Source: a virus. Taken from it: DNA of 64,000 nucleotides. Both the position numbers and the translations under genes were made by a program. The stretch covers positions 62,001-126,000 of the IMG/VR virus record IMGVR_UViG_3300032236_001530, one strand, 5' to 3'. Shown here in pieces: positions 1 to 62,349 of the stretch (position 1 is the stretch's first letter; each line of letters starts with the position of its first letter). The notes under the pieces were generated by a model. That model was not told where the DNA came from. It saw nothing but the letters and a program-made list of their open reading frames with translations, and made no database searches.

Positions 1-2
1 AT

Positions 3-182
3 CCAGCTACTAAGGTTAAGAAAGACATACCCGTTTATGATAAAGTTATAAAAGTTAAATCAAACTTAATATACGATATGGGTTGTTTTGTTAAAGATTA
101 CTGGCAATGGCTTATAACTACAATAGTACTTCCATTTATTATTTGGTTTTATAATAAAAGAAGAAAAGAAAAAGAATCGTAA
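3..182 (+). CDS. C-terminal part of a small membrane-anchored protein (partial)
   Basis: An open frame enters from the left edge and ends at TAA 180-182, giving about 59 residues. The visible part has a charged stretch, then one hydrophobic segment near the end (WLITTIVLPFIIWFY), then a basic tail (NKRRKEKES). This fits a tail-anchored or membrane-inserted small protein. The start lies outside the window and I do not recognise the family. It precedes, on the same strand, a run of exported and membrane proteins. Confidence 0.6.
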   Translation, partial: PATKVKKDIPVYDKVIKVKSNLIYDMGCFVKDYWQWLITTIVLPFIIWFYNKRRKEKES

Positions 183-268: not shown

Positions 269-278
269 TTAATATATA
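269..278 (+). promoter_or_regulatory. Late-type promoter box TTAATATATA (23 nt from start)
   Basis: TTAATATATA lies 23 nt upstream of the ATG at 302. The leader ends in TTAACCACTATG, nearly the same as the leaders at 29412 and 61432. The function as a promoter is inferred from recurrence across the window. Confidence 0.6.
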
Positions 279-301: not shown

Positions 302-2212
302 ATGAAATTACTTAAATTTATAAGTAGCGCTTTGCTTCTTATGATCATTTCCTTACCAGCTTTCTCACAAACTGGTCCCCCAGCGCCTTCGTCCGGTAAC
401 TGGGCTATTATCGATACCAACTATACAGTAGGTACAAACACTTTAGGTGTTACTAAAGCAAGAATCACTTTACAAAACACAACAGTTACAAAAACAACTG
501 GCGTTCAGTTTAGAGTATTCTATGATAAAACAGCATTTGCTGCTGCAAGTGTTGCTTTAGTTGGCACACCTCCAAATTTATATCTACAATATGTAGATAA
601 CAATGCAAATGGTTATGTTACTGTTACACTAGTTTATACTGGTTCAAGTAGTACATACTCACTATCAAATGGTCAAATGTTTGAAATAACATTTACGCAT
701 GTTACTGCGACAACATTTGAGACATTATCATCAATTGGTAATCTAACTTGGACAGGAGCTTATCCTTATACTCAAGTAGCTTCAGCTCAATCTGGTATGG
801 ATACCGTATTATCACTTTATAACTATGGTGGTAACTTTATCTTACCTCATCTATCATATCATGGTAGATTTGTTAACGTTACTGGTTCAGGTGCTAAAAA
901 CTTAACATTAGCTCTACAAAAGAAACCTAAAACTGGTTCAACTTGGACAAATGTTAATACTTATGTAACAGATACTGCTGGTAGATTCTCATTCAATGAG
1001 ATTGTAGATACTACTTACTATAATGCTCGTTTAGCCGTTCAAGGTGATACAATGGGTGTTGGTAGTGTAATATCTGTAGCTGACGCACAATTAATTAACC
1101 AATGGGTTATTGGTGGTTCTACACCAACTGCTTGGAACTTCTACACAGGTGATGTAAATGGTGATAATAACCTAACTATCTCTGATGCTTATGGTGTTTT
1201 TGGTAGAATTGCTGGTAGATTCACTACTTGGCCAAATTCAGTTAAAGATATTAAATTCTTTACAGATGCTGAATACAACACAGTTGTTACATCACCATCA
1301 ACAAATATGACATCAACTGTTCCAGGTGTTACGAATTTCACATTTGATATCTTACCTGGTAATCCGGATTCAGTTATTTACCATGTATTAGTTCCGGGTG
1401 ATGCTAATAGCACAGGTTATCATATGGCTCGTCTAACTCCAATTGATATTATTAATCCAGTAAATGCTCCTAATCATTTAATTGATGAAACTGTTCAATA
1501 TGATTTTGTTGCACCTACTATTGAAGTAAATGTTCCTAATCTAACTGTTGAAGAAGGTAACTTAGTAAAACTTCCTGTTAAAGTATTTACAGGTGGCAGT
1601 AAAGTAGGATCTTTACAACTAGCCCTTAAATTTGATGGTAACTTATTAGAATTCAAACAAGTTATTAATAGTGAAAAAGCTATGAATTGGATGTCTTTTA
1701 TTAATCCAATGGATAGTGTTGTTGAGTGGGGTGGATATGATAGAACTAATGGTGAGAATCTATTCATCGATGGTGAAACAGTATTTACATTAGACTTCTT
1801 AGCTAAATCACCTAAAGACCAATGGGGTAAGTCACCTCTTTATACAACAAGAAAATTTGTTGGTGATGAAAGTTCTGGTGATATGAATTGTAAACCTACA
1901 AATGGTATCTATGCTGTCTATAAAATGGCAAATACATCAGTACCATTAAAATTAAATGAGATTTTAGTTTATCCTAATCCAACAACTGGTGAGGTTACAA
2001 TTAAGTTCAACAACCCAACAGATGGTATGGTTACTCTAGCATTTGTTGATGTTAATGGTAGAACTGTTAAAACAATATTAAATGAGTATATGCCAAGTGG
2101 TGATTATATCTACAGATCAAATTTAAGTGGATTTGCTGCTGGTAACTACTTTGCAACAATGACATCGGCTACAGCAATATCTGTTAGTAAAACGGTGTTA
2201 AATGATAACTAA
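302..2212 (+). CDS. Secreted cohesin/dockerin-like protein with T9SS C-terminal sorting domain
   Basis: This 636-residue protein is built for export to the host cell surface. A Sec signal peptide covers residues 1-22 and ends FSQ. Residues about 45-165 and 403-505 look like cohesin-type beta-sandwiches. Residues about 262-305 contain two EF-hand-like dockerin segments, the second reading DVNGDNNLTISDAY. The last 80 residues form a type A T9SS sorting domain, with YPNPTTGE at 557-564 and a terminal SKTVLN strand. In Bacteroidota this domain directs passage through the outer membrane and surface attachment. A late-type box at 269-278 and the leader TTAACCACTATG, shared with other genes here, suggest phage-controlled expression. 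Substrate and partners are unknown. The cohesin call is by pattern and less sure than the T9SS call. Confidence 0.8.
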   Translation: MKLLKFISSALLLMIISLPAFSQTGPPAPSSGNWAIIDTNYTVGTNTLGVTKARITLQNTTVTKTTGVQFRVFYDKTAFAAASVALVGTPPNLYLQYVDNNANGYVTVTLVYTGSSSTYSLSNGQMFEITFTHVTATTFETLSSIGNLTWTGAYPYTQVASAQSGMDTVLSLYNYGGNFILPHLSYHGRFVNVTGSGAKNLTLALQKKPKTGSTWTNVNTYVTDTAGRFSFNEIVDTTYYNARLAVQGDTMGVGSVISVADAQLINQWVIGGSTPTAWNFYTGDVNGDNNLTISDAYGVFGRIAGRFTTWPNSVKDIKFFTDAEYNTVVTSPSTNMTSTVPGVTNFTFDILPGNPDSVIYHVLVPGDANSTGYHMARLTPIDIINPVNAPNHLIDETVQYDFVAPTIEVNVPNLTVEEGNLVKLPVKVFTGGSKVGSLQLALKFDGNLLEFKQVINSEKAMNWMSFINPMDSVVEWGGYDRTNGENLFIDGETVFTLDFLAKSPKDQWGKSPLYTTRKFVGDESSGDMNCKPTNGIYAVYKMANTSVPLKLNEILVYPNPTTGEVTIKFNNPTDGMVTLAFVDVNGRTVKTILNEYMPSGDYIYRSNLSGFAAGNYFATMTSATAISVSKTVLNDN

Positions 2213-2287: not shown

Positions 2288-2617
2288 ATGGCAGAAGAAA
2301 CACAAAATGTGGAATCATCAAATGATGGTACATGGTCAAGTCTTAAAAAAACAATCATTGGTGCTATATCAACAGCAATTTTAGCTGGTGGTACTTGGGT
2401 AACTACACACTTATTTAGCGGTAGTGATTCAAAAGAAGAACACAAAACTGAACAAGTTGCAGCACCGGCTCCAGTTATTAATATTACAAATAGTAATGCT
2501 CAACAACCAGCAGCGGGTAATACAACTATTATAAAAGAAAGAGTTGTTGAAAAAGCAGCACCTGCTGAAAAGAAAGCAGAACCAAAGAAAAAAGATGAAA
2601 CTGATTCACCTTGGTAA
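2288..2617 (+). CDS. Small single-pass membrane protein with Ala/Pro/Lys-rich tail
   Basis: A 109-residue protein with an acidic N-terminus, one hydrophobic helix at about residues 22-45 (IIGAISTAILAGGTWV), and a low-complexity tail rich in Ala, Pro, Lys and Glu. There is no signal peptidase site, so it is probably an inner-membrane protein with a long soluble tail. It sits between the T9SS-tailed protein and another membrane protein, each separated by about 40-75 nt, and may be co-transcribed with them. Family not recognised; small two-part proteins like this are sometimes holins or spanin partners, but nothing here proves it. Confidence 0.65.
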   Translation: MAEETQNVESSNDGTWSSLKKTIIGAISTAILAGGTWVTTHLFSGSDSKEEHKTEQVAAPAPVINITNSNAQQPAAGNTTIIKERVVEKAAPAEKKAEPKKKDETDSPW

Positions 2618-2655: not shown

Positions 2656-3306
2656 ATGGGATTTAAAGATTTTTTTAGTAGCAAAGCAGATTATGTAAAA
2701 GTAGACAATAATAACAGATTCTACTATATGCTTCAACAAATGCAAGTTAATAGATGGAAAATTACATCAATAGTATTAGGTATATTTGTACTTATAATTG
2801 TAGGTATTAATGCTGGTGTATTCTTAGGATCAAAAATTAATGAAGATTGGAAAGAAATGTTACTTATCTTATTAGGTGCTTTCGTTGGTAATCTTAACAA
2901 GGTTGTTGACTATTGGTTCAACTCTGAAGATAGAGATAAAATGTTGATTCAAAAAGTTGACGAGGAAGATGGTGTGTCACTTTCAAATGTTGCTGAGTTT
3001 CCAAACTCACCAAAGGTTGAAAAACCAATGCCTGATTATACATCATCAATGAAAAAAAAAGTTGATGTAGTTGAGACTCCAGTGGTTGAAACACCAGTGG
3101 TTGAATCAAAACCAACATCTGTTACAAAGGTAGAAATCGATGAAGATGGCGATGGTGTTACTGATGGTTATGATATTGATGGTGATGGCACTATTGATGA
3201 GTATTTCCCACATAGAAATTGTCAACACATTTGGGGTGACGCTGATGGTGATGGTTTTGAAGAATGTCAAAACTGTGGATTGTTAAGAAGTCAATCAGGA
3301 GAATAA
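2656..3306 (+). CDS. Two-helix membrane protein with calcium-type DxDxDG repeats and a Cys/His tail
   Basis: 216 residues. Two hydrophobic segments lie at about 36-58 and 68-85, followed by a linker with VVETPVVETPVVE repeats. Near residue 160 is a run of acidic loops (DEDGDGVTDG, DIDGDGTIDEY), like those of thrombospondin type 3 or EF-hand calcium sites. The C-terminus has C-x-H, a further DADGDGFEE loop and C-x2-C, which could bind zinc. It is probably anchored in the inner membrane with the metal-binding part on one side. I know no named family for this combination. It lies directly upstream of the CsgG-like gene, 16 nt away. Confidence 0.6.
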   Translation: MGFKDFFSSKADYVKVDNNNRFYYMLQQMQVNRWKITSIVLGIFVLIIVGINAGVFLGSKINEDWKEMLLILLGAFVGNLNKVVDYWFNSEDRDKMLIQKVDEEDGVSLSNVAEFPNSPKVEKPMPDYTSSMKKKVDVVETPVVETPVVESKPTSVTKVEIDEDGDGVTDGYDIDGDGTIDEYFPHRNCQHIWGDADGDGFEECQNCGLLRSQSGE

Positions 3307-3322
3307 AAAAATAAAATTAAGA

Positions 3323-4042
3323 ATGAAACCACTACTTTTAACCCTTATAATGATATTGTCTTTCGGTTTTTGTAGAGCTCAAATTGGCTCTATAAAAACT
3401 GAAGCATATCAAGCTGCGTTTGAAAAAACTCAGTCTATTGATAGTGTGTCTAACTATACAGACACAATTAAAGTTCCTATTCAATTATTAAAAATTGGTA
3501 TTAATGCGGAACTATATGAAATGTACCCTGAGCTTAAAGATAAAAGAGTAGGTCTAGGTGTTACAAACATTGTTATTGAATATTTAGAAATGACTAATAG
3601 ATTTGTCTTTACTGAAGATAAATTAGAAATTAAAGAAAGAATGGTTAGTCAATTTAAAGCTTCTGATAAAGGATTTACTGAAAATAAAATGGATGGTAGA
3701 GGTAAGATTAAACTTGCTAAGTACTTTGTTTATATTGAGGTTTATGACTTTTCAGTGTCAGAAGATGAAGTTGTTAAAATAAAAGGAGAATCTAAAACAA
3801 CACAAACAACAAGACTTGGTCTTCAAGTTAAATTTGTAGATGCTGAAACAGGTGAAATACTTGTTGGATCTGGTTTAGGTGAGGCATCAACTATTAAAAC
3901 AGAATCTATACTTGATGGTATAGACGAGACACCGGTTAAATTTAACCAATCTACAATCGGTACAACTACTAAAAAAGCACTTGAAACTGCTTCTTCTAGA
4001 ATTGTATCCAGAATGATAAAAAAGGGTATTTTTAAATCGTAA
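3323..4042 (+). CDS. CsgG-like outer-membrane secretion/lipoprotein-fold protein
   Basis: 239 residues with a Sec signal peptide ending about residue 19 (CRAQ). The mature region shows the CsgG pattern: an early strand RVGLGVTNIVIEYL, then the phrase NRFVFTEDKLEIKERM, a middle strand for the periplasmic domain (KYFVYIEVYDFSV), and a final amphipathic region. CsgG family members form the curli export pore or related envelope complexes. The lipobox cysteine usual in CsgG is not clear. The next gene starts immediately after its TAA, so the two are translationally coupled. The protein at 8605 shares its C-terminal half, suggesting a paralogous pair. A pore function is inferred. Confidence 0.55.
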   Translation: MKPLLLTLIMILSFGFCRAQIGSIKTEAYQAAFEKTQSIDSVSNYTDTIKVPIQLLKIGINAELYEMYPELKDKRVGLGVTNIVIEYLEMTNRFVFTEDKLEIKERMVSQFKASDKGFTENKMDGRGKIKLAKYFVYIEVYDFSVSEDEVVKIKGESKTTQTTRLGLQVKFVDAETGEILVGSGLGEASTIKTESILDGIDETPVKFNQSTIGTTTKKALETASSRIVSRMIKKGIFKS

Positions 4043-5578
4043 ATGTATGTCAAGAGCCTTATATTCGCAATCTTATTGTTTGTTTTACCTGATTTAGTGA
4101 GGGCACAGAACTATGTTTATTCATATGCTGACCCTTGTACCGGTGTATTAAAAACTATTAATGTCCCAACAAATGGAGTCACTGTTACTTATTTTGGACA
4201 AATGCACACTTTTAACCCTGCTGATTTTACAAATGGTAATTTCAGTAACTGGGCTAGTGGTGTTTTTGGATCATTTGGTGGGAATAACCCTTGTGGTTCT
4301 ACAATCGGCGTAAGTACAAGTGTTAGTATGGCTCAGAATAGTGCCATGAATGTTTTAAGTGTAATGAACTCATTATCAGCTATTAGTGATATTGCTAGCA
4401 GCATAGGTGGTAGCACCGGTGGATTAAATACAAATGGCGCTACTGAAAGTACAAAGAGTGGTGATGGTAAGTCATCAGATAAAAAAGATGATAAGTCTGG
4501 TTCTGGTGGATCATCATCGGATGATAAGTCAGGTGGTTCAGGATCAGGTGGTTCAGGATCGGGTGGTTCAGGATCAGGTGGTTCAGGATCAGGTGGTTCA
4601 GGATCAGGTGGTTCAGGATCAGGTGGTTCAGGATCAGGTGGTTCAGGATCAGGTGGTTCAGGATCAGGCGGTTCAGGATCAGGCGGTTCAGGATCAGGCG
4701 GTTCAGGATCAGGCGGTTCAGGATCAGGCGGTTCAGGATCAGGCGGTTCAGGATCAGGCGGTTCAGGATCGGGTGGTTCAGGATCAGGTGGATCTAATCC
4801 TGATAATTCTACAAATAGTTCAGCAACAACCGATAATGATAAAAAATCAAATATATTAGGTGGTTCCGTGACTTCCATACAAAATGGATCCGGAAGTGGA
4901 AGCAGTAGTAATAAAGGTGGTCCAGGTAGTAAAGAAGGTGGTAAGCCAACAATTGTTGTCAGCTCTGACTTTGCTGGTTTCAACTTCAAAAGTGGTGATG
5001 TTTCTTATGGTGGTAAAGCAACCGGTGGTTGGACAGCTCTTAATTGGAACGGTACAAGATCACATGGATTTATGTTAGATTACACATCAGCTAATAAAGG
5101 TCCTAACTTTACAGCATTTTATGCTATTATTAAAAAAAGAAGAATTGACCTTATATCCGTAACAGGAACAACAAGCTTTTATGGTGCTGGTTCATTATAT
5201 GGTACATTGGCACTTGGTCAGATGTGGAGTTTTCCAAAGATTAAAAATCTTAAAGCCATATATATGGCGACATCATCATATGGTAGTGTGTACGGTACAA
5301 AATTCTTAGGAACTGCATTCATCACTGGTGGTATGTATGACTTTAAAATAGGTAAAAGAACTCAAATTAAACTCACAAATTTATTTATATATGCTCCTTA
5401 TATCAGTTATTACAATGACATGGTTTTAAAATCCCCATATGTCATAATGCCTATTGTTGGTACAAATATAGGTATAACAAAAAAATTCAAACTAAACGTG
5501 AACTTTGGTGGAACATATGCCTTAGGCGAAAATGTTTTAAACTTTACGGTTATGATGGGGACAAGACTTGCTTTATAA
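4043..5578 (+). CDS. Outer-membrane beta-barrel protein with long Gly/Ser repeat linker
   Basis: 511 residues. A Sec signal peptide (cleavage near RAQ) is followed by about 120 residues with two cysteines, then a polar stretch and about 17 copies of a five-residue GSGGS unit. The C-terminal 210 residues alternate polar and hydrophobic strands and end MMGTRLAL, as in outer-membrane beta-barrels. The likely picture is a barrel in the host outer membrane carrying a flexible linker and an N-terminal domain. ATG 4043 abuts the stop of the CsgG-like gene, and the adhesin gene begins one base after this stop, so the three form one unit. Function not known. Confidence 0.6.
   Translation: MYVKSLIFAILLFVLPDLVRAQNYVYSYADPCTGVLKTINVPTNGVTVTYFGQMHTFNPADFTNGNFSNWASGVFGSFGGNNPCGSTIGVSTSVSMAQNSAMNVLSVMNSLSAISDIASSIGGSTGGLNTNGATESTKSGDGKSSDKKDDKSGSGGSSSDDKSGGSGSGGSGSGGSGSGGSGSGGSGSGGSGSGGSGSGGSGSGGSGSGGSGSGGSGSGGSGSGGSGSGGSGSGGSGSGGSGSGGSGSGGSNPDNSTNSSATTDNDKKSNILGGSVTSIQNGSGSGSSSNKGGPGSKEGGKPTIVVSSDFAGFNFKSGDVSYGGKATGGWTALNWNGTRSHGFMLDYTSANKGPNFTAFYAIIKKRRIDLISVTGTTSFYGAGSLYGTLALGQMWSFPKIKNLKAIYMATSSYGSVYGTKFLGTAFITGGMYDFKIGKRTQIKLTNLFIYAPYISYYNDMVLKSPYVIMPIVGTNIGITKKFKLNVNFGGTYALGENVLNFTVMMGTRLAL
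4532..4794 (+). repeat. 15-bp tandem repeat encoding GSGGS units
   Basis: About 17 copies of a 15-bp unit (GGTTCAGGATCAGGT) run in frame. Units from about 4669 to 4762 use GGC for one glycine where the others use GGT, which points to local duplication of a variant block. Copy number is likely to vary between isolates. Confidence 0.95.
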
Positions 5579-5579
5579 G

Positions 5580-8552
5580 ATGAAAAAGATAGGATTATTA
5601 TTACTAACAACTTTATTATTTTTAGTTCCGAATTTAGTGTTAGCTCAAGCTACATCGATATCTATGTCTGGTTCAACATCGACTTTAACAGCATCATATA
5701 ATACAGCTACTGTTGTTGATCCAAACTTAACAATTAATGCAAATGGAACAATAACAAACTTCCGTGTTCAAATATCACAGACATACACATCTGGTGATGT
5801 TTTAGATTACACAGGTACTTTAAGTGGTGTTAGTGGTACTTTTAATTCAACTACCGGTGTGTTGGTTTTTACAGGTACTGCTGCTGCGGCAGATTGGCAA
5901 ACACTTTTAAGAACGGTTAGATTCAAATCAACAAGTACAACTTGTTATGCAAATCAAAGAAGAATTACATTCACCGCTGGTTCTGTTTATTATAATCCAC
6001 TAACATCTCACTTTTATGAGTTTGTTTCTGGTTCTATAACTTGGACAGGAGCATATACATCAGCAAGTGGTAGATCTTACTTTGGTAGAGCTGGTTATCT
6101 TTCTACAATGGCTTCATCTGCTGAGAATAACTTCATATGGAAAATTATGCCATCTGATGCTTGGTTTGGTGCTTCGGATGATTATACATATGTTAATGCT
6201 GCTTTAGGTACGACAACATACGCATCTCAATCTGCGGTAGAAGGTAAATGGCACTGGGTAACTGGTCCTGAAAAAGGAACTAACTTTTCTAATGGAAACA
6301 GTGGTGCTGGTCCTTATACTGTTACTGGTCAATATGCCAACTGGGCAGGTGGTGAACCAAATAACTCAGGTGGTAGTGAGAACTATGGACAATTCTACTC
6401 ATCAAATAATGGTATGTGGAATGACTTACCTAACTCAACTTTAAATGGATATATTTGTGAATATGGTGATATGCCAGGTGACTTAACAACAAGCAATCCT
6501 ATATCAACAAGAAGTATATCGATAACAAACGGATCTAGTGGTTATATAACTGGTGGTGATATAAATGTTTGTTCTGGTAGTAACAGTACAACACTTACAT
6601 TAAATGGATTAACTGGCTCAGTGGTTAGATGGGAGTCATCTTTAGATAACTTTTTTACAACTGGTACAACAATATCAAGTACTTCTACAAGTATCACCGT
6701 TACTAACATCACATCTACTACATATTATAGAGCTATTGTAAACTCAACAAGTCCTTACTCTTGTTCTTCATTGGCATCATCAAGTACCTATCTTACGGTT
6801 AAACCAACTATGTCAGGTTCGGTGTTTGCTGATAACAATACTATTTGTTCTGGTGGTAGTGTTAATCTTACTTTATCTGGTCAACAAGGTAATGTAAATA
6901 AATGGCAAAGATCATCTGATAATACAAACTGGACAGATATAAGTAATACAACTACTTCATTAACAGAAACTCTTTATGGTTTAGGTAATGGTTTAAATAT
7001 GGATGGATCTAACGATTATGTTTTACTTCCTAAACCAACTCTAAATAATATGACAATTGAGTACTGGGTAAAAACAACTCAAACATCATTAACAGGTACA
7101 CAATGGTATAATGGTAATGGTATAGTTGATGCTGAAGTTGCTGGCTCAACATCTGATTTTGGTACTTCATTATTAAATGGTAAACTAGCCTTTGGTGTAG
7201 GTAATCCAGATGCTACAATACAATCAACAACAAGTATTAATACAGGAGCATGGACTCACGTTGCTGCTACTTGGAATGGTTCAACTGGTGAAATGAAAAT
7301 TTATATTAATGGTGTTTTAGAAGCAACTGGTACTGGCGCAACTGGTACAAGAACAGCACCACCTAATATTAGAATTGGTTCTATACAAACAGGAATTCAA
7401 TATTTTAATGGAACTATTGATGAGTTAAGAATTTGGAATGTAGTAAGATCTCAAAGTGATATTCAATCTAATATGTATAGTGAGGTATCAACATCTTCTT
7501 CGCTATCATCTTATTATAAATTCAACCAAGGTACATCAAATGGTTCTAACTCAGGTCAAACATCATTAACTGATGCGAGTGGTAACAGTAACACAGGTAC
7601 TCTTTATAACTTTGCTTTAACTGGCACTACTTCAAACTGGACAGATGGTATGGGTGCTGGTTATTATTATCGTGTTGAAGTTCAAACACCAAGTTGTGGT
7701 GCCGCTGTTTATTCACCTTCTAAATTAATTACTGTAACATCTGGCACACCGCCAAATGGTGGTTCTGTTTCATCAGCTGTTCACGCGACTACTACAAACT
7801 CAGGTACACTAACTTTAAGTGGTTATACAGGAACAATTGTTAAATGGCAAAAATCTACAAACAGTGGTGTTACTTGGTCTGATATAGCTAATACAGCCGC
7901 TACATATAGTTACACAAACCAAACTGACGGGACTTTATTTAGAGCTCAGTTAACTAGTGGAACTTGTGGTAATGCTTACTCACAAGCTGGTATGATTACA
8001 GTAGCTCCTTTTGCTTATTCTGGTTACATATATAACTCAGAAGGTATTGGTGTTGCGGGTATACCTGTTAAGTTTTATTATAAAGATAAAACACAATCTA
8101 CATATACTTTAGTTGGTAGTTTTATAACTGATAGTAACGGTAAATATACAATAACATCAACTCTTAGTATTAACATATATGACTTTAGAATTGCAATTGA
8201 TAATTTATCTGTTGCGCCTCCAACTACAATTGATGCTCAATATTTTAATCAAAAAGTTTTATCACAAACATTTAACGCTAAAGATTATTATAGAATGGAT
8301 GTTAATGATAATAACAATTTAAACATTGCTGATGTTTATCAAATTTTCTATAGATTATCAGGTGGTATATCAAATTGGCAGTTTTCGGTTCCAGCTTATA
8401 GATTGTTCACATCATCTCAATGGTCTGTTATAAACTCATCTAATTTAAATTTGAAATCCACATATGTTGGAGTACAATCAATTGTAGTTGATTCATTAAT
8501 ATCTAACGGTTCAACTAATTTATATTTAATTAGAACAGGTTATAAACAATAA
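5580..8552 (+). CDS. Giant secreted adhesin: C-type lectin, Ig-like, LamG and dockerin-like modules
   Basis: 990 residues from ATG 5580, chosen over an in-frame TTG at 5568 because it follows the upstream stop and begins the signal peptide (cleavage near VLAQ). A C-type lectin-like domain spans about 143-296, with the hallmark GEPNNSGGSENYGQF, a WND and a final YICEYG. Ig-like segments with W-x-x-S patterns follow. A LamG/concanavalin-like domain covers about 470-630 (GLNMDGSNDYVLL, WTHVAATWNG, IDELRIWN). Another Ig-like segment precedes a carboxypeptidase-regulatory-like domain (about 813-870) and a dockerin-like module with DVNDNNNLNIADVY near 906-920. There is no T9SS tail. It probably binds glycans on the cell surface; the ligand is unknown. 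Confidence 0.8.
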   Translation: MKKIGLLLLTTLLFLVPNLVLAQATSISMSGSTSTLTASYNTATVVDPNLTINANGTITNFRVQISQTYTSGDVLDYTGTLSGVSGTFNSTTGVLVFTGTAAAADWQTLLRTVRFKSTSTTCYANQRRITFTAGSVYYNPLTSHFYEFVSGSITWTGAYTSASGRSYFGRAGYLSTMASSAENNFIWKIMPSDAWFGASDDYTYVNAALGTTTYASQSAVEGKWHWVTGPEKGTNFSNGNSGAGPYTVTGQYANWAGGEPNNSGGSENYGQFYSSNNGMWNDLPNSTLNGYICEYGDMPGDLTTSNPISTRSISITNGSSGYITGGDINVCSGSNSTTLTLNGLTGSVVRWESSLDNFFTTGTTISSTSTSITVTNITSTTYYRAIVNSTSPYSCSSLASSSTYLTVKPTMSGSVFADNNTICSGGSVNLTLSGQQGNVNKWQRSSDNTNWTDISNTTTSLTETLYGLGNGLNMDGSNDYVLLPKPTLNNMTIEYWVKTTQTSLTGTQWYNGNGIVDAEVAGSTSDFGTSLLNGKLAFGVGNPDATIQSTTSINTGAWTHVAATWNGSTGEMKIYINGVLEATGTGATGTRTAPPNIRIGSIQTGIQYFNGTIDELRIWNVVRSQSDIQSNMYSEVSTSSSLSSYYKFNQGTSNGSNSGQTSLTDASGNSNTGTLYNFALTGTTSNWTDGMGAGYYYRVEVQTPSCGAAVYSPSKLITVTSGTPPNGGSVSSAVHATTTNSGTLTLSGYTGTIVKWQKSTNSGVTWSDIANTAATYSYTNQTDGTLFRAQLTSGTCGNAYSQAGMITVAPFAYSGYIYNSEGIGVAGIPVKFYYKDKTQSTYTLVGSFITDSNGKYTITSTLSINIYDFRIAIDNLSVAPPTTIDAQYFNQKVLSQTFNAKDYYRMDVNDNNNLNIADVYQIFYRLSGGISNWQFSVPAYRLFTSSQWSVINSSNLNLKSTYVGVQSIVVDSLISNGSTNLYLIRTGYKQ

Positions 8553-8604: not shown

Positions 8605-9066
8605 ATGAAAAAACTTTTATTTACGCTATTATTTTTAGCACCATTTATTACTTTTGCTCAATTACAACAATCTTGTGTTCATGTGGATTCAGTTTACTCA
8701 ACTTGTAAAGCAAAAGATTTAGGCAGAAGAGACATTAGATTTGGTATTAAACAAATTGTAGATGATGAATTATCAAATAAGTATTGTTTATCAGATTCTG
8801 GTGAACCTCTAAGAGTTGAGATTTATTATTTTGGAACACCAAAAACAACATTAAGAATTGCTGGTATTGAGAAAACAGACCAATTAACGCAAGTAGGTGT
8901 TAGAATTTACTACAAAGGACAAAAATATGAAGGTATTGGTGAATCTGAAGTTGAGGTAAGAGCTGTCCTAATTGAATTAGTAGATGGTAAAGTACCATTT
9001 AGTCAAACAGCTGTTTCATCCGCTATAAAGAAAGGAATCATCGAATGTATATCAAAAATGCCTTAA
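8605..9066 (+). CDS. Short exported CsgG-fold-like protein
   Basis: 153 residues with a signal peptide ending TFAQ. Three cysteines are in the mature part. The C-terminal half (TDQLTQVGVRIYY through PFSQTAVSSAIKKGII) lines up by eye with the corresponding part of the CsgG-like protein at 3323 (TTQTTRLGLQVKF through FNQSTIGTTTKKAL). It may be a shortened paralogue, accessory to the same envelope complex. Its 3' end overlaps the next gene by 22 nt, so the two are probably translated together. The family call is by pattern only. Confidence 0.5.
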   Translation: MKKLLFTLLFLAPFITFAQLQQSCVHVDSVYSTCKAKDLGRRDIRFGIKQIVDDELSNKYCLSDSGEPLRVEIYYFGTPKTTLRIAGIEKTDQLTQVGVRIYYKGQKYEGIGESEVEVRAVLIELVDGKVPFSQTAVSSAIKKGIIECISKMP

Positions 9067-9497
9067 TACTTTTATTTATACTTCTATCTAGTAATTTATT
9101 TGCGCAAACTCAAATAGATGACGTTGGAGATGGTTGGAAATTAAAAGTAGACTCAGCTATCAATTTGATAAAAAAGACCAGCCCTGAGCATTATAAACAG
9201 GTTTCTGAGTATTGTAAACATGTTAGTTACTGGATGGGTGGATTTTCAACAACTCAAGATTCTGATATCGTTTTGATATCAACAAAAGATATGAAAATAG
9301 GCTCAGTTAATAACATAGCTTGTATATTAGTTCATGAGTCTCATCACTTGTATATTAAGAGTAAACATATAATACTAACCCCTAAAAAAGAAGAATTGGA
9401 ATGTTATATGTATGAATATGAGTTCATAAAGAAAGTAAACAACCCTGAAAACTGGCTGATTACACACATTATAAAAAATATTATTAATAATAAATAA
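9045..9497 (+). CDS. Secreted HExxH metallopeptidase-like protein
   Basis: 150 residues with an N-terminal signal peptide (cleavage near LFAQ). Residues about 98-102 read HESHH, matching the zincin HExxH motif, and a downstream EELECYMYEYE could supply the third ligand as in gluzincin-type enzymes. The protein is short for a protease, so it may be a minimal peptidase domain or an inactive relative. It overlaps the preceding gene by 22 nt and ends at a strong bidirectional terminator, making it the last gene of the exported-protein block. Confidence 0.5.
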   Translation: MYIKNALILLFILLSSNLFAQTQIDDVGDGWKLKVDSAINLIKKTSPEHYKQVSEYCKHVSYWMGGFSTTQDSDIVLISTKDMKIGSVNNIACILVHESHHLYIKSKHIILTPKKEELECYMYEYEFIKKVNNPENWLITHIIKNIINNK

Positions 9498-12503: not shown

Positions 12504-13505
12504 TTATAAATATTTAATTGAATTACTATAGCCGGTTAGTCCAACTTTGTTATACCCAGCCGAACCAACTTTATGAGCCATAAATCCACCAGAATCTAAT
12601 TCCAAATCTTTAACTATTTCATCAACAAAGAACTTAGGATCTTTACCTTCTTCATAGTATTTTGATATCTCATCTTCGTATTCATCAATTAAATGATTAA
12701 GTACAACAGGTCTTATATTATATTGTTCAAGTGAAGATATTATCTGATTTGTGTATTCTTGTATATCATTATATGATTCGTTTGTTGGGTAGACATTTCT
12801 ATTAAGAATAATATGAATATTTATATTTATATTTCTTGGTTCATTCCAAGGTTGACCTGACCCAGCTACTAAAAAAGTTATTGTTAAAAAACCGGATGTG
12901 TATTCTAAGTGATTAATTAATTTATGACAAGCATCTTCAGCGACTTCAACTATTTCTGACTCATATGCTTCTAAATCACCACCTGGTCTAAGAGTTGATA
13001 TGTGTTTTTGATAAACTTCATTCTTGTCAAAATTATATCTTAAATTAAGATTTCCTCTCCAAGTTTTTTCAACTTGTTTGAATAATGATATTCTCATTTC
13101 TTGAGATTTGAAATTACCAACATTATCATCATCAATATCATATTCTTCATCTGAACTATCAACTTTATATTCATTGATTTCAAATTCCATATCATACAAT
13201 TCTTGTAAGCACTCTTCTACTAAATTAGCTTCTTCATCATCTAATTTGGATTCTTCTACTTTAGTAATACCTTTAGCTGGTGCTAAAAATCTCATATCAG
13301 AAACTTCGTTTGGTTTACCTTTCTTAATTTTTTTACCCTTTTTATCAAATAAATAAAATGTTATATCACCTGATCCAGATGTTCCGGCTTGACCGGCAAA
13401 TGCACCTGGTTGAGCATTTGATACGGCTCCCATACCAGCAGTTGTTGCGGTAGCGGTAGCAGTACCATCTTCTAAAAATGCTTTATATCTTTTAAGGTGT
13501 TTCAT
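12504..13505 (-). CDS. Capsid-targeted (CTS) protein, 333 aa
   Basis: The N-terminus MKHLKRYKAFLEDG matches the recurring capsid-targeting-like motif with a cleavage-type F-L-E. A low-complexity Ala/Thr/Gly stretch follows (about residues 13-45), then a mixed alpha/beta region rich in acidic residues. No catalytic motif is recognised. A TTAATATATA box lies 5 nt upstream of the start. The likely role is an internal head protein, processed by the prohead protease during maturation; this rests on the N-terminal motif alone. Confidence 0.6.
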   Translation of the reverse strand: MKHLKRYKAFLEDGTATATATTAGMGAVSNAQPGAFAGQAGTSGSGDITFYLFDKKGKKIKKGKPNEVSDMRFLAPAKGITKVEESKLDDEEANLVEECLQELYDMEFEINEYKVDSSDEEYDIDDDNVGNFKSQEMRISLFKQVEKTWRGNLNLRYNFDKNEVYQKHISTLRPGGDLEAYESEIVEVAEDACHKLINHLEYTSGFLTITFLVAGSGQPWNEPRNININIHIILNRNVYPTNESYNDIQEYTNQIISSLEQYNIRPVVLNHLIDEYEDEISKYYEEGKDPKFFVDEIVKDLELDSGGFMAHKVGSAGYNKVGLTGYSNSIKYL

Positions 13506-13510
13506 TAGAT

Positions 13511-13520
13511 TATATATTAA
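13511..13520 (-). promoter_or_regulatory. Late-type box TTAATATATA, 5 nt from start
   Basis: On the minus strand TTAATATATA ends 5 nt before the ATG at 13505. The spacing would make the transcript nearly leaderless. Confidence 0.6.
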
Positions 13521-13765
13521 TATCCATCAACTAAAATATCTTCAGATTCTGTTGATTTACATTTAGGACAAGTTGGTTCACCATCTTCTTTCATGAAGTA
13601 ATATTCAACACCACAATTTAAACATCTATGTGGATAAGCTACCTTTTGAGGAATTGGTTCTGTTTTTGGATCTCTTGGTATTTCAGGATTGTTAAAAGCC
13701 CATGAAGAGCCTGCCCAAGAAGTTTGGAAATCATCACCCTCGTTGAATCTTTTTAGATATTTCAT
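13517..13765 (-). CDS. Capsid-targeted small zinc-ribbon protein
   Basis: 82 residues. The N-terminus MKYLKRFNEGDD carries the capsid-targeting-like motif ending F-N-E. The second half contains two C-x2-C pairs (CLNCGVEYY and CPKCKS) separated by about 18 residues, a rubredoxin-like zinc ribbon. It may bind nucleic acid inside the head or act in the cell after injection. Its late-type box is 4 nt upstream. The box of the following gene lies within the 3' end of this one. Confidence 0.65.
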   Translation of the reverse strand: MKYLKRFNEGDDFQTSWAGSSWAFNNPEIPRDPKTEPIPQKVAYPHRCLNCGVEYYFMKEDGEPTCPKCKSTESEDILVDGY

Positions 13766-15645: not shown

Positions 15646-16350
15646 CTATTTTGAATATTTGGTTGTATTAAAGAACTCTTTGTAGGTAACAATTTTATTA
15701 CCACCTTGGATAGCATCAACTTCTTCTTTTTCATCATCATCCATTATCATCATTTTAAGATCGGTACCTTTTTCAATTGGTGCTTCATATTCAAAGCTAT
15801 CAAGGTCTTTATCCATAAATGTATAATCTTTTGGTGATGTTTCAAAACCAAAGCTGTTAAAGAAGTTAACTATATTTTGTAATGATTCGTCAGAGAAACC
15901 AAAATAAGTTTCACCATCATATAAAGAACCTTTACCTGTATAGTGTATAACTTCTACTTTATTAGGATAATCAATAGTGAAGTGGTAAACCATAGCATCA
16001 CCATATGTTAATTCAACATTTAATCTAAGTTTATCAGCTGGATTTGCGTGAGCACCATCATTATCTTTAACAATAGTAACGTCAAATTCTAATTGATCTG
16101 GTTCACCGTCAGCTAAAACGTCACCACCTTCTGAATCTACGGTGTTATGTGCATAAGTAATTTGAATACAATTCATCAAATTAGCAACATCAATTGAGTG
16201 ATTAGTACCTGGGCTTAAACCTGGTTTTCTTTCAACTTCAAATTCACCATTCTCGGTGATAATTGTCAATGTTTCTGGTAAAAACTTTGACCAATCTACT
16301 TCAAATATACTGGTAGATTCGCTTTCGTTAAACTTTTTTAAATATCTCAT
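15646..16350 (-). CDS. Capsid-targeted protein, 234 aa
   Basis: MRYLKKFNESES carries the capsid-targeting-like motif with F-N-E. The rest is acidic, with several predicted beta strands (LTIITENGEFEVERK, LNVELTYGDAMVYHFTID), and ends in VTYKEFFNTTKYSK, which faintly echoes the same motif. No enzyme motif is seen. A TAAATATATA box ends 4 nt before the start. Probably an internal virion protein; the claim depends on the N-terminus. Confidence 0.55.
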   Translation of the reverse strand: MRYLKKFNESESTSIFEVDWSKFLPETLTIITENGEFEVERKPGLSPGTNHSIDVANLMNCIQITYAHNTVDSEGGDVLADGEPDQLEFDVTIVKDNDGAHANPADKLRLNVELTYGDAMVYHFTIDYPNKVEVIHYTGKGSLYDGETYFGFSDESLQNIVNFFNSFGFETSPKDYTFMDKDLDSFEYEAPIEKGTDLKMMIMDDDEKEEVDAIQGGNKIVTYKEFFNTTKYSK

Positions 16351-31396: not shown

Positions 31397-31772
31397 TTTG
31401 TCAGATATACCTTTTGTTCATTCCGGTAGTTATCGAGACGAGTGTAGAGTAAAAGGTAATAAACTACTAACTGAGCTTAATAGAATAAATATTAATATGT
31501 CAACTAAACATAATTATATAATCATACCGGTTAGTATTTATAATCTTTTAGAGATAAATGATAGTTTTATATCTTTAGAAAAGTCCGCTAATACATATGA
31601 TGGTCCAATTAAAGTTGGCTTGATTGGTGAGTTTATTTGCTATTTAGATATACATTTACCGCCAAATGAAATTATTGTTTCTTGGGATAGACAAACATCA
31701 AGAAATGTTAAATTAGATTCTATATTAAATGATACATTTGAAAAAGAAAAAAGAATTAAGGTTATATCTTAA
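31386..31772 (+). CDS. Hypothetical protein, 128 aa
   Basis: 128 residues, mixed alpha/beta (NYIIIPVSIYNLLEI, EFICYLDIHLPPNEIIVSW). It is coupled to the gene upstream by an 11-nt overlap. The last codons form one arm of a terminator hairpin and the stop overlaps the convergent DHH gene by 4 nt. Not recognised. Confidence 0.5.
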   Translation: MVIDLSDIPFVHSGSYRDECRVKGNKLLTELNRININMSTKHNYIIIPVSIYNLLEINDSFISLEKSANTYDGPIKVGLIGEFICYLDIHLPPNEIIVSWDRQTSRNVKLDSILNDTFEKEKRIKVIS

Positions 31773-31780
31773 TTCTTTTT
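31748..31780. terminator. Bidirectional terminator inside overlapping 3' ends
   Basis: AAAAAGAATTAAG (31748-31760) pairs with CTTAATTCTTTTT (31768-31780). Both convergent genes stop within the hairpin. Confidence 0.75.
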
Positions 31781-33622
31781 GTTTATATAGCTTTCAAATT
31801 TTGCTATTATTTTCTTGTTTACATTATCTATAGTCATTAAACTCTTTCTATCTGGTTTCATGCCTTTTGTAGCACCAGCCTTTAAGAATTCATCTCTTGT
31901 CACAGGTACTGGTTGTCCAGTCTTTTTATCAACTATATTATATTCAAAGTTTTCATTTGTGTCTTGTCCTAATAATTCAACACCTTTTGTGTCGTATTCA
32001 ACTTCACCACCTTGGTTAGCTATATCTATTTTTGATTTTAATACATTAACAAAATCTTTAGCAACTGTTTTAAGAACATCAACATACTTTTCAGTATTAT
32101 AAGCTATTTTAAGAGCTGGTTTATTATACTTTAAGAAGTTGAAACCAGAGATATTTGTAATTGAAGGGTGACCACCTGAGTTTCTAATAATAAGTTCCCA
32201 TGCAGGTATTTTGATATTACTTAAATATGTTTTTTGGTCAGGAGCTAAATCACTAAACGAAACATCCATATACTCTCTCAACTCTGGATTGTTAATATCA
32301 ACATTAACAATTTTACCATCTTTCTTCTCATACATACAATCTTTGTAAAAAGCTTCTAAATCAGTCCATCTAAACCCAACACCTTCATAATCCTCACCTT
32401 CTGCTTTTTGCATTGCTTTCCAATCTTGAGATGTTTCAAATTCTTTTTTAAGAGATTCTAATGAAACATAAAATCTTTTTAATACTGATTCATGTTTTGC
32501 TAAAACTTCTTTAGCTATTTCACCTAAGTTAATTTCTTTTAACTTCTTTTCTTTGAATGGATTACAAGAAACTTGTAATAACCCCATTGGCCAAGCAATA
32601 CAGTTAAAGTCAGCCTCTGGGTTGTTTTTGAATACCACATATCTATCATATGAACCAGCTTTAATCATATTACCACCACCATATTGAGTAACGATTTTAT
32701 AATCAGAGTCAAAGTTAACACCTTTGCCAATTTTAGCGCCAGTTGATAATAGATTTTTATGTCTCCAATTTGTTGGATCATATTCGGTCACATCACCTGT
32801 ATTTGGATCTTCAATGAAACTATAATTCTTCATTCTATCAATGTAAGAGTTTAAGTTATCTGTAATTTCTTCAGGTGTTGCTAATCTTCCTAATTTATCA
32901 GAAGTTTTAGCATTACTAATATAATGTTTAATGTTGTTAAACATTGAGTATAAACTACCTGTAGAATCCAAAGTTAAACATTCAAGAATATTTTTATTAA
33001 TATGATTTCTCTTACCATCTAAAGATTTAACAGTGATTCTTTTATTTTTATAAGCCAATAATAATCTATTAACTACAAAACCCATCATAAATCTATTCTT
33101 AGCTGGTGTTTCAGCTCTATCTTGTGTAAAGATTGCTTTTTGTACATCTTCTGGTTTGATATTATATGTTAAAAAGTTAGCTGAGTCAACTGTTTTAATT
33201 AGTTCAATATCTTGAGGTGTAAAAATATCAGAGTATGATATTTCACCAGAAAGTATCTCAACATTTGAACGAGCATGTTTGAAGTATGTTGATTTAGTAT
33301 CTTCAGCACCAACTTGTTTATCATGATGATCTGATTGAATGTGGAACATTGGCTTACCGTGAGCAAAGTCAACTAGCACACAAAGGTTACCCTCTTGGTG
33401 ATGCTTAATAGCGTATTCTAAACCACCATATTGTATAATATGACAATCAACAGTTTCTATTTGATAGTAATTCTTTAAGAATTCTTTCATAGCAATAGCT
33501 GATGTAACACCATCTAAGTCTTTGTGGAAATAAATCTCTGCAGTTTTATGAAGCTTTGCTATCTTAGAAATGTTTTTAAGACCTACTTCCTCGTTTAGGA
33601 AATTTTGATATTTTTTTATCAT
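31769..33622 (-). CDS. Capsid-targeted DHH-family phosphoesterase
   Basis: 617 residues. MIKKYQNFLNEEVG is a capsid-targeting-like start with L-N-E. The next 200 residues carry DHH motifs: HKDLDGVTSAIAM (motif I), VLVDFAHG (motif II) and QSDHHDKQ (motif III). Such proteins cleave oligonucleotides, cyclic dinucleotides or polyphosphate. A substrate-binding region follows with GGGNMIKAGSYDR and NSGGHPSITNISGFNF, which resemble DHHA1-type motifs. The last residues, AKFESYINKKN, again look like a capsid-targeting motif. The N-terminus suggests the enzyme is packaged and delivered. A role in breaking cyclic dinucleotide signals of host defence is a speculation. Confidence 0.75.
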   Translation of the reverse strand: MIKKYQNFLNEEVGLKNISKIAKLHKTAEIYFHKDLDGVTSAIAMKEFLKNYYQIETVDCHIIQYGGLEYAIKHHQEGNLCVLVDFAHGKPMFHIQSDHHDKQVGAEDTKSTYFKHARSNVEILSGEISYSDIFTPQDIELIKTVDSANFLTYNIKPEDVQKAIFTQDRAETPAKNRFMMGFVVNRLLLAYKNKRITVKSLDGKRNHINKNILECLTLDSTGSLYSMFNNIKHYISNAKTSDKLGRLATPEEITDNLNSYIDRMKNYSFIEDPNTGDVTEYDPTNWRHKNLLSTGAKIGKGVNFDSDYKIVTQYGGGNMIKAGSYDRYVVFKNNPEADFNCIAWPMGLLQVSCNPFKEKKLKEINLGEIAKEVLAKHESVLKRFYVSLESLKKEFETSQDWKAMQKAEGEDYEGVGFRWTDLEAFYKDCMYEKKDGKIVNVDINNPELREYMDVSFSDLAPDQKTYLSNIKIPAWELIIRNSGGHPSITNISGFNFLKYNKPALKIAYNTEKYVDVLKTVAKDFVNVLKSKIDIANQGGEVEYDTKGVELLGQDTNENFEYNIVDKKTGQPVPVTRDEFLKAGATKGMKPDRKSLMTIDNVNKKIIAKFESYINKKN

Positions 33623-33623
33623 A

Positions 33624-34037
33624 TTATTTTATATAATTTTGATCTGTTTTTCTATATATTAATATATTCAAGTGTTTATTTTCAATGTATTCTTTATGTA
33701 TATAATAACCTAAATCATCTAATCTTAGTGATGCAACTTCCATTATTTCTTTATACTCTTCAGAGTTTTTCAAATTGGTAAGTTCATTATTTATTTTCCA
33801 AAGACTCTCTTGAAAAGGTCCCCAGTTTTTACCAATACTAATTTGAATGTAAGTAATTAAAGCAAATTTTAATGCTGATTCATCGGTGTTTTTAAAATCA
33901 AATAGTTTTTTTAAAAATCTAACATCAACTATCCAACCGTTATCTGATATATCAGTGAATAAAAATTCAATATCTTCAGGTGTTAACTTAGATTCAGGTG
34001 ATAGATGTATATTTTCAAACTTTTTTAAGTATTTCAT
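33624..34037 (-). CDS. Capsid-targeted small protein, 137 aa
   Basis: MKYLKKFENIH matches the family start, with K-F-E in place of F-N-E. The remainder is helical, with no recognised motif. It sits between the amidoligase-like and DHH genes; the overlap of 1 nt upstream and gap of 1 nt downstream show all three belong to one operon under the box at 35438-35447. Confidence 0.55.
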   Translation of the reverse strand: MKYLKKFENIHLSPESKLTPEDIEFLFTDISDNGWIVDVRFLKKLFDFKNTDESALKFALITYIQISIGKNWGPFQESLWKINNELTNLKNSEEYKEIMEVASLRLDDLGYYIHKEYIENKHLNILIYRKTDQNYIK

Positions 34038-49405: not shown

Positions 49406-50098
49406 ATGAAACACTTAAAGAATTTTCAATTATTTGAATCTAAAAAAGAAGAGCCTTCTAAAAAGTCTCAAGAAATGATCGATGCTTTTAAGAAAAAGTA
49501 TGGTACTGAATTAGATGAAAAATTTGATGTTGACCAAATAAAATTGATTGAAAGTGCTTTTGAATTTTTTGATAAAAAGTTTATCAAAAATAAAATTGAA
49601 AAAATAATACTTGATGACTTGGGTGGTGTTCATGGTAGATGGTCGGAAACAAAGACTAAAAAACAAATGACACTTAATCCTTCTATATTCAAATTCAAAA
49701 AAGAGTTTGAGAATGGTTCTAAAGATATCCCTTATAAAGAGTTTGTTATTGTTCATGAGATAGGTCATTGTGTTGACCATGTTGAAAGAGTTTCTTATTC
49801 TAAAACATGGCAAGCTATCTCTGGTTGGAAAAGACTAGATAGAGATAAACCCGTTCCAGAAGGATATGTTAGATATGTGGAAGAAAGAAAAGGTAGAGAA
49901 ATAGCTGGTCCTAAAAAATCAAACTGGATTCATAAAAAAGATGCTTTTTTCTGTAGAAAATATACTTCTAGAAATCCAAGAGAAGATTTTGCGGATTGTT
50001 TTGCGTTTGGTGTGTTTGGTGATTGGGATAGATTCAAAGGTGAAGGTGGTGAAAAGAAAATGGCTATTATTAAAGCCACATTAAAGAAAGTAGATTAA
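49406..50098 (+). CDS. Capsid-targeted zinc metallopeptidase
   Basis: 230 residues. MKHLKNFQLFESKK is a capsid-targeting-like start with L-F-E. The zincin motif HEIGHCVDH (HExxHxxxH-like) lies near residue 114, and NPREDFADCFAFGVFG follows, as in proteins where a Glu/Asp in a second helix completes the site. The protein should be an active zinc peptidase. Its packaging signal suggests delivery into the host at infection, like T4 Alt, although the target protein is unknown. The stop overlaps the convergent neighbour by 4 nt. Confidence 0.75.
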   Translation: MKHLKNFQLFESKKEEPSKKSQEMIDAFKKKYGTELDEKFDVDQIKLIESAFEFFDKKFIKNKIEKIILDDLGGVHGRWSETKTKKQMTLNPSIFKFKKEFENGSKDIPYKEFVIVHEIGHCVDHVERVSYSKTWQAISGWKRLDRDKPVPEGYVRYVEERKGREIAGPKKSNWIHKKDAFFCRKYTSRNPREDFADCFAFGVFGDWDRFKGEGGEKKMAIIKATLKKVD

Positions 50099-53463: not shown

Positions 53464-55410
53464 TTAGTTTGATACTAATGTTACTGTTATTGGTGATCCA
53501 GCTGTAAATGGTGCTCCTGCAGTTTGTATTTGTGTAGCACCTGTCATTATAAATTGACCTAGGTTTTGGTAACCCGATGTGTATATTATATTAGCAGCAG
53601 GTACCGTATAGATAGCTGAATGTCCTCCTTGTGTCAATGTTAATGTACCACCATTAGCATCCATGGATGTTAAAACAGATGAAGCATCCGCACTATACAT
53701 ATCATAGCCAAATAGTGAGATATTATATGGAGCTCTTACACCATTTTCTGTTCTAAAGTCTGGATTCAATGTATTGACATATCCTATACCTGTAGCCCCA
53801 TTTTTATTCATAGTCATTTTACCAGCTGAATTAGGTGTAGTTAATGAGCCACTTTCAGTACCTGATAATAGATAAGTAAATGTTCCAGATGATGCACCAC
53901 CTCCGCCACCAGAAGCAGATATTATTATATTTAAGTCAATTGATAGTCCATATGTGAATGGAGTTGAAGCACTAGCAACCATAGTAGCATTTTGAGTTGG
54001 TATAGCAAGGTAGGATTGAGTTCCAGATCCACCAACACTTGCAATGTTTTGTCCAAGTGTATAAACAGCTTGATTTGAACCTTGAGCTATGGATATTGTA
54101 CCACCATTTGATTTTAAATTATTAAATTGTGTTGTGTAATCTGTTCCATTATTTCCTATAACATTAAAGTAAAGATTATTATTAGCACCACCAGATATTT
54201 TATTTGGACTAAATGTGTTGTAAGAACTGTATGTACCACCATTGACTACAAATATAGCATTGCTTTTATTAATAGGTGGACCTACTGTTATAATACCCTC
54301 AGTTGATTGATAGAAGAACCAAGAACCTGTAGCACCAGACGAACCACTAGAACCTGATGATCCACTAGATCCCGACGAGCCACTAGATCCTGATGATCCA
54401 GCTGAGCCACCAATATGTAGCGTCATTGACCCATAGTTAGAACCAGTTCCCCAATGGTAAACATAATCACCATTTGTTACTCCTAGGTCAGATAGTGTTT
54501 TATTATTAAATGTTGTGCTACCTGAAATTACACCACTTGTATAACCAGTTGGTACAACTAAATATCTATTACTACTAGTAAGCCCATCACCAATCAAACC
54601 AAATCCACTTCCCGAACCAGTAGAACCACCCATTCCAGAACCTGTACCAAAACTAAATGTACCTAGTGATGGTCCTGTGTATCTATCAACATTATACCAA
54701 GATCCACTATAGAATGTTCCTGTGTCAGGTCCTATACCTCCTTGACCGATTGGAATATTATCAATATATGTTAAATCACCAAGATTAAAACTACCGGTAC
54801 CTATTAAAATAACATCAGATCCTATTTGAGTTAATGTTATTATAAAACTAGATGTACCACCTGAACCACTAGATCCTGAAGATCCGCTTGATCCGGAAGA
54901 TCCACTTGATCCGGAAGATCCTGAAGATCCACTTGAACCACTTGATCCGGATGTACCTGAACTACCTGAAGTACCGGATGAACCACTTGAACCACTAGAT
55001 CCTGAAGATCCGCTTGAACCAGAAGATCCGCTTGATCCAAGATTTAAGAGTCCAAAATTACCACTATTATTTAGCCAATTTTTTGCTGAATTGATATCAA
55101 GAAATGATTGAGTATTACCTGGTAATCTATTGATTAGTTCTAATAAAGCAGCATCTGTTTTACCTTTACTTCTAAAAAATGTAGGTTTATAAGCTAATGC
55201 TGTGGAATTTCCATTACCAGCTGGTCTACCATATAGATTTGTTGAACTTGTATCAGAGTAAATTACATATCCTGCGTCATCACTAACACCTCCATACCAA
55301 CCACCAGTTGTATAGTCAACTTGTCCTATAGCAATAGCTAAGGTTCCTATTTGTGTAGCCCCTGGTATATAAGTACCACTTGGGTTATATTTTACATCAT
55401 ATATAGCCAT
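53464..55410 (-). CDS. Fibre-like virion protein with collagen-type Gly-x-x repeats
   Basis: 648 residues. Residues about 124-185 and 345-370 consist of G-S-S or G-T-S triplets, a collagen-like pattern common in Bacteroidota phage fibres. An N-terminal domain (YDVKYNPSGTYIPGATQIG) likely attaches to the virion. The region between and after the repeats is strand-rich and Gly/Ser/Thr-rich (GSGMGGSTGSGSGFG) and may form a trimeric shaft and tip. No signal peptide. It may bind the host receptor or decorate the head. Confidence 0.6.
   Translation of the reverse strand: MAIYDVKYNPSGTYIPGATQIGTLAIAIGQVDYTTGGWYGGVSDDAGYVIYSDTSSTNLYGRPAGNGNSTALAYKPTFFRSKGKTDAALLELINRLPGNTQSFLDINSAKNWLNNSGNFGLLNLGSSGSSGSSGSSGSSGSSGSSGTSGSSGTSGSSGSSGSSGSSGSSGSSGSSGSSGSSGSGGTSSFIITLTQIGSDVILIGTGSFNLGDLTYIDNIPIGQGGIGPDTGTFYSGSWYNVDRYTGPSLGTFSFGTGSGMGGSTGSGSGFGLIGDGLTSSNRYLVVPTGYTSGVISGSTTFNNKTLSDLGVTNGDYVYHWGTGSNYGSMTLHIGGSAGSSGSSGSSGSSGSSGSSGSSGATGSWFFYQSTEGIITVGPPINKSNAIFVVNGGTYSSYNTFSPNKISGGANNNLYFNVIGNNGTDYTTQFNNLKSNGGTISIAQGSNQAVYTLGQNIASVGGSGTQSYLAIPTQNATMVASASTPFTYGLSIDLNIIISASGGGGGASSGTFTYLLSGTESGSLTTPNSAGKMTMNKNGATGIGYVNTLNPDFRTENGVRAPYNISLFGYDMYSADASSVLTSMDANGGTLTLTQGGHSAIYTVPAANIIYTSGYQNLGQFIMTGATQIQTAGAPFTAGSPITVTLVSN
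54842..55040 (-). repeat. Collagen-like triplet repeat region
   Basis: Tandem 9-bp units encode Gly-Ser-Ser or Gly-Thr-Ser, with variable third codon bases. A shorter block of the same kind is at about 54333-54410. Confidence 0.85.
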
Positions 55411-61869: not shown

Positions 61870-62349
61870 TTATTTACCGAATTTCTTTAGTCTTGTATGT
61901 CTGTAACTTTTAGACTCAAACTTTTCTTCTTCCTCTTCACTATTCATCATCTCTTCTTCATTATCCATCTCGTTTTCTTCAACTTCATGATGACTGTGTG
62001 TATGTTCAGGTGTTGTTGATTTCTCTAAATAGTTAACAACTTCTTCAGCTGTTTTAAATTTCTTATTATCAACGTGAAAGCTTTCAGTTTCTGAGAAGAA
62101 GTTAATAGTCTTACCATCGTGTTCAATCTTATTATCTATAACTTCAGTACCAAGCATTTCTGCTAACTCAGCCATTTTCTTTTGACCTTCGTATTCACCA
62201 CCTTCTTCTTCAGGAAGTTCTGATTCTTCCATTTCAGTGTTATCCATTTCTGTTTCATGCATATCCATTTCTGGTGCTTCAACTTCATGTTCCATTTCGA
62301 AGTCCTCATTTACTTTACCTTTTACAAAGTCTGTATATCTTTTAATCAT
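61870..62349 (-). CDS. Acidic capsid-targeted protein (core-like)
   Basis: 159 residues. MIKRYTDFVKGKVNEDFE has the basic/aromatic start and a V-N-E site. The rest is Glu/Met/Asp-rich (EMDMHETEMDNTEMEESE), with a short folded centre (TVIDNKIEHDGKTINFFSE-like region) and a His-rich turn (HTHSHHEVEE). The end is basic (RHTRLKKFGK). Acidic proteins with targeting sequences form prohead cores in T4 relatives, so a scaffold or internal protein role is likely. Confidence 0.55.
   Translation of the reverse strand: MIKRYTDFVKGKVNEDFEMEHEVEAPEMDMHETEMDNTEMEESELPEEEGGEYEGQKKMAELAEMLGTEVIDNKIEHDGKTINFFSETESFHVDNKKFKTAEEVVNYLEKSTTPEHTHSHHEVEENEMDNEEEMMNSEEEEEKFESKSYRHTRLKKFGK

Follow-up and report, generated by a model that had tools for sequence, protein, structure and literature searches.

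A phage gene with a type IX secretion sorting domain opens a conserved module of predicted exported and membrane proteins

We analysed a window of 64,000 nucleotides, bases 62,001-126,000 of a 155-kb virus record (IMG/VR IMGVR_UViG_3300032236_001530), and this report concerns an open reading frame (ORF) near its start, here called gene A, and the genes B to H that follow it. Judged by its sequence, gene A is a genuine phage gene with a bona fide type A signal of the type IX secretion system (T9SS), and by the same kind of evidence it stands at the head of a conserved set of genes for predicted exported or membrane proteins, a module shared by a large family of Bacteroidota phages. The explanation that we favour, and in which we have moderate confidence, is that A is a phage-encoded cohesin scaffold that would be displayed through T9SS and would hold dockerin-tagged lectins, the products of gene F, on the infected cell. 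We favour it because the sorting domain is kept, because the cohesin is recognised by Pfam and by fold, and because a dockerin-like domain is common to A and F; further reasons are that the heads of F vary while its docking domain is constant, that the gene order is conserved, that A is split in immuto, a cultured phage of Flavobacterium, and that in sampled cellular genomes the part of A with matches is essentially its sorting domain alone. The features of gene A are these:

269..278, + strand: late-type phage promoter box TTAATATATA; 20 copies in the window against 1.7 expected
302..2212, + strand: gene A, T9SS type A cargo; N-terminal beta-sandwich, dockerin-like segment (residues about 205-385), cohesin (404-540) and sorting domain (556-632)
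1520..1906, + strand: cohesin domain, residues 407-535; PF00963 at 32.5 bits against a cut-off of 24.1, and Foldseek matches to solved cohesins
1967..2197, + strand: T9SS type A sorting domain, residues 556-632, by PF18962 and TIGR04183

Gene A starts with ATG and encodes 636 amino acids. By inspection of the sequence its N-terminus is a Sec-type signal peptide, MKLLKFISSALLLMIISLPAFSQ, and the relatives were inspected in the same way. Residues 556-632 matched PF18962 (Por_Secre_tail) with 41.2 bits (curated cut-off 27), TIGR04183 was matched with 28.9 bits (curated cut-off 23), and the strings YPNPTTGE and SKTVLN are both found in the protein, which bears out the original prediction of a signal peptide and a type A sorting domain. 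The search of related phages for this domain that had been suggested was also positive, PF18962 being matched by all 65 aligned relatives of A and exactly once per record in 22/22 phage records searched. The sorting domain is the least similar part of A, with a median of 32% compared to 47-59% for the other domains, and from these sequences it appears to be under selection to be retained. By tblastn, immuto was the only isolated phage in which a type A sorting domain was found. Neither a second T9SS signal (CHU_C) nor a PorP component was found in the genome of this phage, a search in which the CHU_C control was also silent. In a related phage (L003, 7755-9941) the gene directly upstream of A encodes a protein with PKD repeats and a T9SS signal of type B (CHU_C, 55 bits).

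A pattern scan found full-length relatives of A in at least 231 viral contigs; relatives of protein D occur in 345, and the contigs bearing the module were up to 434 kb long. A was present in 79 of the 80 loci fetched through D, and in all 79 loci showing both, D was downstream of A on the same strand and within 2.5 kb. UniProt contains a full-length homologue, A0A6J5M064, given there as a sorting-domain protein from an uncultured phage. A search of 84,980 species genomes gave matches to A in just two contigs, both from metagenome-assembled genomes (MAGs), and one of these is 254 kb long, carries phage topoisomerase, tail and lysin genes and is evidently a phage. The phage contig that was binned in a Bacteroidetes MAG has a further sorting-domain match about 25 kb from A (G001:C291:133061-133330). 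In 296 Bacteroidota genomes, that phage contig aside, the listed matches to A span essentially the sorting domain alone and therefore the body of A looks phage-specific, as far as sampled.

Each of the 20 copies of box TTAATATATA in the window is in sense orientation and is followed by an ORF start at a distance of no more than 60 bp, and the ORFs so preceded include genes that match phage helicase and primase. It had been claimed that both the box and the leader of A are the same as in undoubted phage genes of this contig; this is true of the box, but the rest of the leader has no second copy anywhere in the window. That the sorting domain of A is a cellular domain would suit host contamination or a chimeric contig as the source of the gene, but A is found in cultured phage genomes and in the viral contigs counted above with its gene order conserved, a phage late-type box stands before it, and the species genomes yielded just the two MAG contigs. 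Because synteny is conserved across an isolated phage genome and over 100 independent contigs, we rejected a chimeric join or contamination, the chance of which we regard as negligible; the earlier opinion that contamination is unlikely thus holds.

The AlphaFold2 model of A was good, with a predicted local distance difference test (pLDDT) score of 86 and a predicted template modelling (pTM) score of 0.71. Pfam, a PDB profile match and the fold all identify residues 404-540 as a cohesin; in Foldseek this jelly-roll matched solved cohesins with a probability of 1.00 and TMt up to 0.74 (6kgc), and PF00963 was matched by 57/65 relatives of A at E<=0.01. The dockerin-like segment gave a weak PDB match to the ScaB dockerin, and Dockerin_1 (PF00404) was matched by 21 of the 65 relatives. 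A dockerin-type F-hand loop (e.g. DVNGDNNLTISD), the second of a pair, is present in 155/156 A proteins and in 115/119 F proteins. The N-terminal beta-sandwich of A was considered as a second cohesin and rejected, as it had no profile support.

The usual order of the module is A, B, C (optional), D, E, F, G, H, and in the window the genes after A are as follows:

2288..2617, + strand: B, single-transmembrane protein of about 110 amino acids adjoining A; matches in 153/157 loci
2656..3306, + strand: C, small membrane protein, optional; holin-like by eye only
3323..4042, + strand: D, predicted exported CsgG-like protein, the most conserved module member
4043..5578, + strand: E, predicted exported protein with a low-complexity linker and a barrel-like C-terminus, from alignment
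5580..8552, + strand: F, predicted exported lectin (Lectin_C, LamG) with a C-terminal dockerin-like domain
8605..9066, + strand: G, small, predicted exported, D-related protein; hhalign probability 95 to the D family
9045..9497, + strand: H, predicted exported HExxH protein, putative metalloprotease

The F ORF is listed as 5568-8552, with an upstream TTG. In 119 of 120 F proteins the C-terminal domain is a homologue of the dockerin-like segment of A, and the Dockerin Pfam match was obtained in 3/54; neither a sorting domain nor a cohesin was found in the F proteins. Their heads are modular (C-type lectin, LamG or PA14, mostly the first two) and could be aligned in 57% of pairs compared to 95% for the docking domain. 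No hydrolase family was among the Pfam matches of the F partners. For D, the best 17 Foldseek matches of the structure model were all CsgG or curli complex (E from 5e-8, probability 1.00), PF03783 (CsgG) was matched by 2/50 of its relatives (best E 8.5e-5) and not by D of the window, and on this weak model D would have the CsgG fold. No clear lipobox was seen by eye in the aligned relatives of D, and the cleavage looks to be of the signal peptidase I type. C had no family match above the cut-off. The C-terminus of E looks barrel-like by eye and no relative of E was found in the PDB; at 4469-4854 of the window, 15-nt tandem repeats encode a GSGSG-type linker within E. The one PDB match of G, ribosomal S1, was judged spurious. 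In a related locus (L038, 12212-14923) F and a D-like G share a single ORF of 903 amino acids, and they are separate in near relatives. The HExxH motif of H was kept in 104/104 relatives.

The form of A in immuto is a pair of genes whose products both begin with a signal peptide; gp014 has the N-domain and the dockerin-like part, and gp015 the cohesin and the sorting domain. This fission at the dockerin-cohesin boundary suggests that the two halves associate non-covalently. In three related contigs A is broken by an in-frame TGA, with an ATG directly after it, at the linker where immuto splits:

L112 9968-11860: TGA-interrupted A
L120 9968-11860: TGA-interrupted A
L053 639-2531: TGA-interrupted A

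A probable course of events under the scaffold explanation would be that A is made late in infection, uses Sec to pass the inner membrane, and is recognised by the host T9SS through its type A domain, so that it would cross the outer membrane and be anchored or released. Its outward-facing cohesin would then bind the dockerin-tagged phage lectins F, which have no sorting domain and may exit by the phage's own CsgG-like D and G. The resulting lectin coat would most probably mask or cross-link surface glycans, leading to cell adhesion or to altered adsorption, the latter through receptor masking against superinfection and against loss of progeny to the host and its debris. Adsorption control by glycan masking is the most likely benefit, followed by cell adhesion and then by a role in lysis. 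Modification of the host surface, as originally suggested, is the most natural reading of the features of gene A, with the surface location itself a prediction. More tentatively, since we think it rather doubtful in its full form, the module could be a viral surface-display organelle, in which a phage-encoded cohesin scaffold, sent out by way of the host T9SS, takes up interchangeable dockerin-tagged phage lectins delivered via a CsgG-like pore that the phage also encodes, to give a virus-specified glycan-binding coat.

Several observations weigh against the scaffold explanation. The dockerin-like domain of A in the window is below Pfam detection and its first F-hand is degenerate, and cohesin and dockerin modules are also known in proteins that do not form cellulosomes. 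The structure model of D is of low confidence (pLDDT 67, with a template modelling score of about 0.45-0.5 to CsgG). In the three contigs with the TGA the sorting-domain half has no signal peptide. Finally, the gene for a glycoside hydrolase family 19 (GH19) lysin is no further than 10 kb from A in about half of the whole records, which would fit a role in lysis. The gene directly upstream of A in this phage also bears on lysis:

G000:C1 61334-62182 (locus L166 11334-12182; its last part is window 1-181): u-spanin-like gene, 282 amino acids, lipobox LITSC, C-terminal transmembrane segment

If the module served lysis or release through the outer membrane, the CsgG-like pores, the membrane proteins and the HExxH protein would open the outer membrane when infection ends, and A and F would act in the envelope while the cell lyses. 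This is supported by the u-spanin-like neighbour and by a GH19 endolysin gene no more than 10 kb from A in 37/57 large loci and 11/21 whole records, and such a role was proposed for CsgG/CsgF of the methylophage Melnitz (PMC9004378). However, the lysin is about 79 kb away in this phage and about 31 kb away in immuto, the position of the u-spanin-like gene before A is not conserved (it was found there in 1/87 loci by a crude rule and was rejected as a constant partner), and the conserved T9SS signal and the lectins would be left unexplained; we therefore regard a lysis role as unlikely. Slightly more credit, though still little, is due to adhesion or sibling capture, in which displayed lectins would make infected cells sticky so that new hosts are near at burst. 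It draws on the lectin heads of F and on CsgG-like D and G, and the same idea was proposed for the curli genes of pelagimyophages (PMC7029224), but no CsgA/CsgB-like fibre subunit was recognised, and sequence alone cannot separate adhesion from masking. Ig-like and lectin folds are frequent on virions, and A and F could accordingly be structural decorations whose secretion signals are remnants; the signal peptides are present, however, the sorting domain is conserved in every relative, and the module genes of immuto are far from its structural cluster, so that a virion role is quite improbable.

Among other features of the window, many unrelated proteins have a common N-terminal MKxLKxFxE-type signature, reminiscent of the capsid-targeting prodomains of T4, and a second set of small proteins has a common C-terminal ending of the 'KLDxIL' type. 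At 54311-55038, 9-nt repeats lie inside the minus-strand ORF 53464-55410, which probably encodes a repeat-rich fibre protein. The proteins of the two sets include:

12504-13505, 13517-13765, 15646-16350, 31769-33622, 33624-34037, 49406-50098, 61870-62349 and others: MKxLKxFxE/'KLDxIL' proteins

Like known T9SS type A cargo (TIGR04183/PF18962), A has a Sec signal and a C-terminal sorting domain above cut-off; unlike it, A is phage-encoded and its body was not found in the sampled cellular genomes. A virus with T9SS cargo had been called unusual, but A is no isolated oddity, as it is a conserved single-copy gene of a large phage family and earlier reports exist. In Cryophage, type A sorting domains were described and use of the host T9SS was proposed (Bellas 2020, PMC7468147); there the labelled proteins come from three accessory genes that vary (endoglucanase, GH39, PA14), whereas here there is one conserved scaffold in a fixed module. 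Sorting-domain proteins are also reported for the crAss-like phages of crAss-BACON cluster 2, where BACON repeats lie near head genes and the parts of the source consulted mention no cohesin/dockerin or CsgG module (PMC6949934). A resembles a cellulosome scaffoldin in having a cohesin on a surface-directed scaffold and a dockerin-like domain on partner proteins. It differs in its T9SS export tag, in binding that is predicted, and in partners with lectin, LamG or PA14 heads in place of glycoside hydrolases; no dockerin-bearing glycoside hydrolase was found among the partners by Pfam, and cellulosome membership was rejected. Phage-encoded CsgG-like exported proteins such as D have precedents in the CsgG/CsgF of pelagimyophages (PMC7029224) and Melnitz (PMC9004378), but D is in Bacteroidota phages, is very remote in sequence and is joined to T9SS cargo and lectins. 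The homologous module of immuto is gp013-gp019 (NC_055915), which differs from the window in that A is two exported proteins and the lectin gene is upstream.

It is known that phages alter the host surface by lipoproteins and glycosyltransferases, and to our knowledge little attention has been paid to phages that, as a conserved strategy, use a dedicated secretion system of the host. A conserved single-copy scaffold module of this kind appears to be undescribed in the open-access literature searched. The module is present in hundreds of environmental phages, with contigs exceeding 400 kb, and because there is a cultured representative, immuto on Flavobacterium LMO8, the idea is directly testable. 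If it is true, it would be an example of viral use of cohesin-dockerin logic, and infected cells would probably be given a virus-made surface coat.
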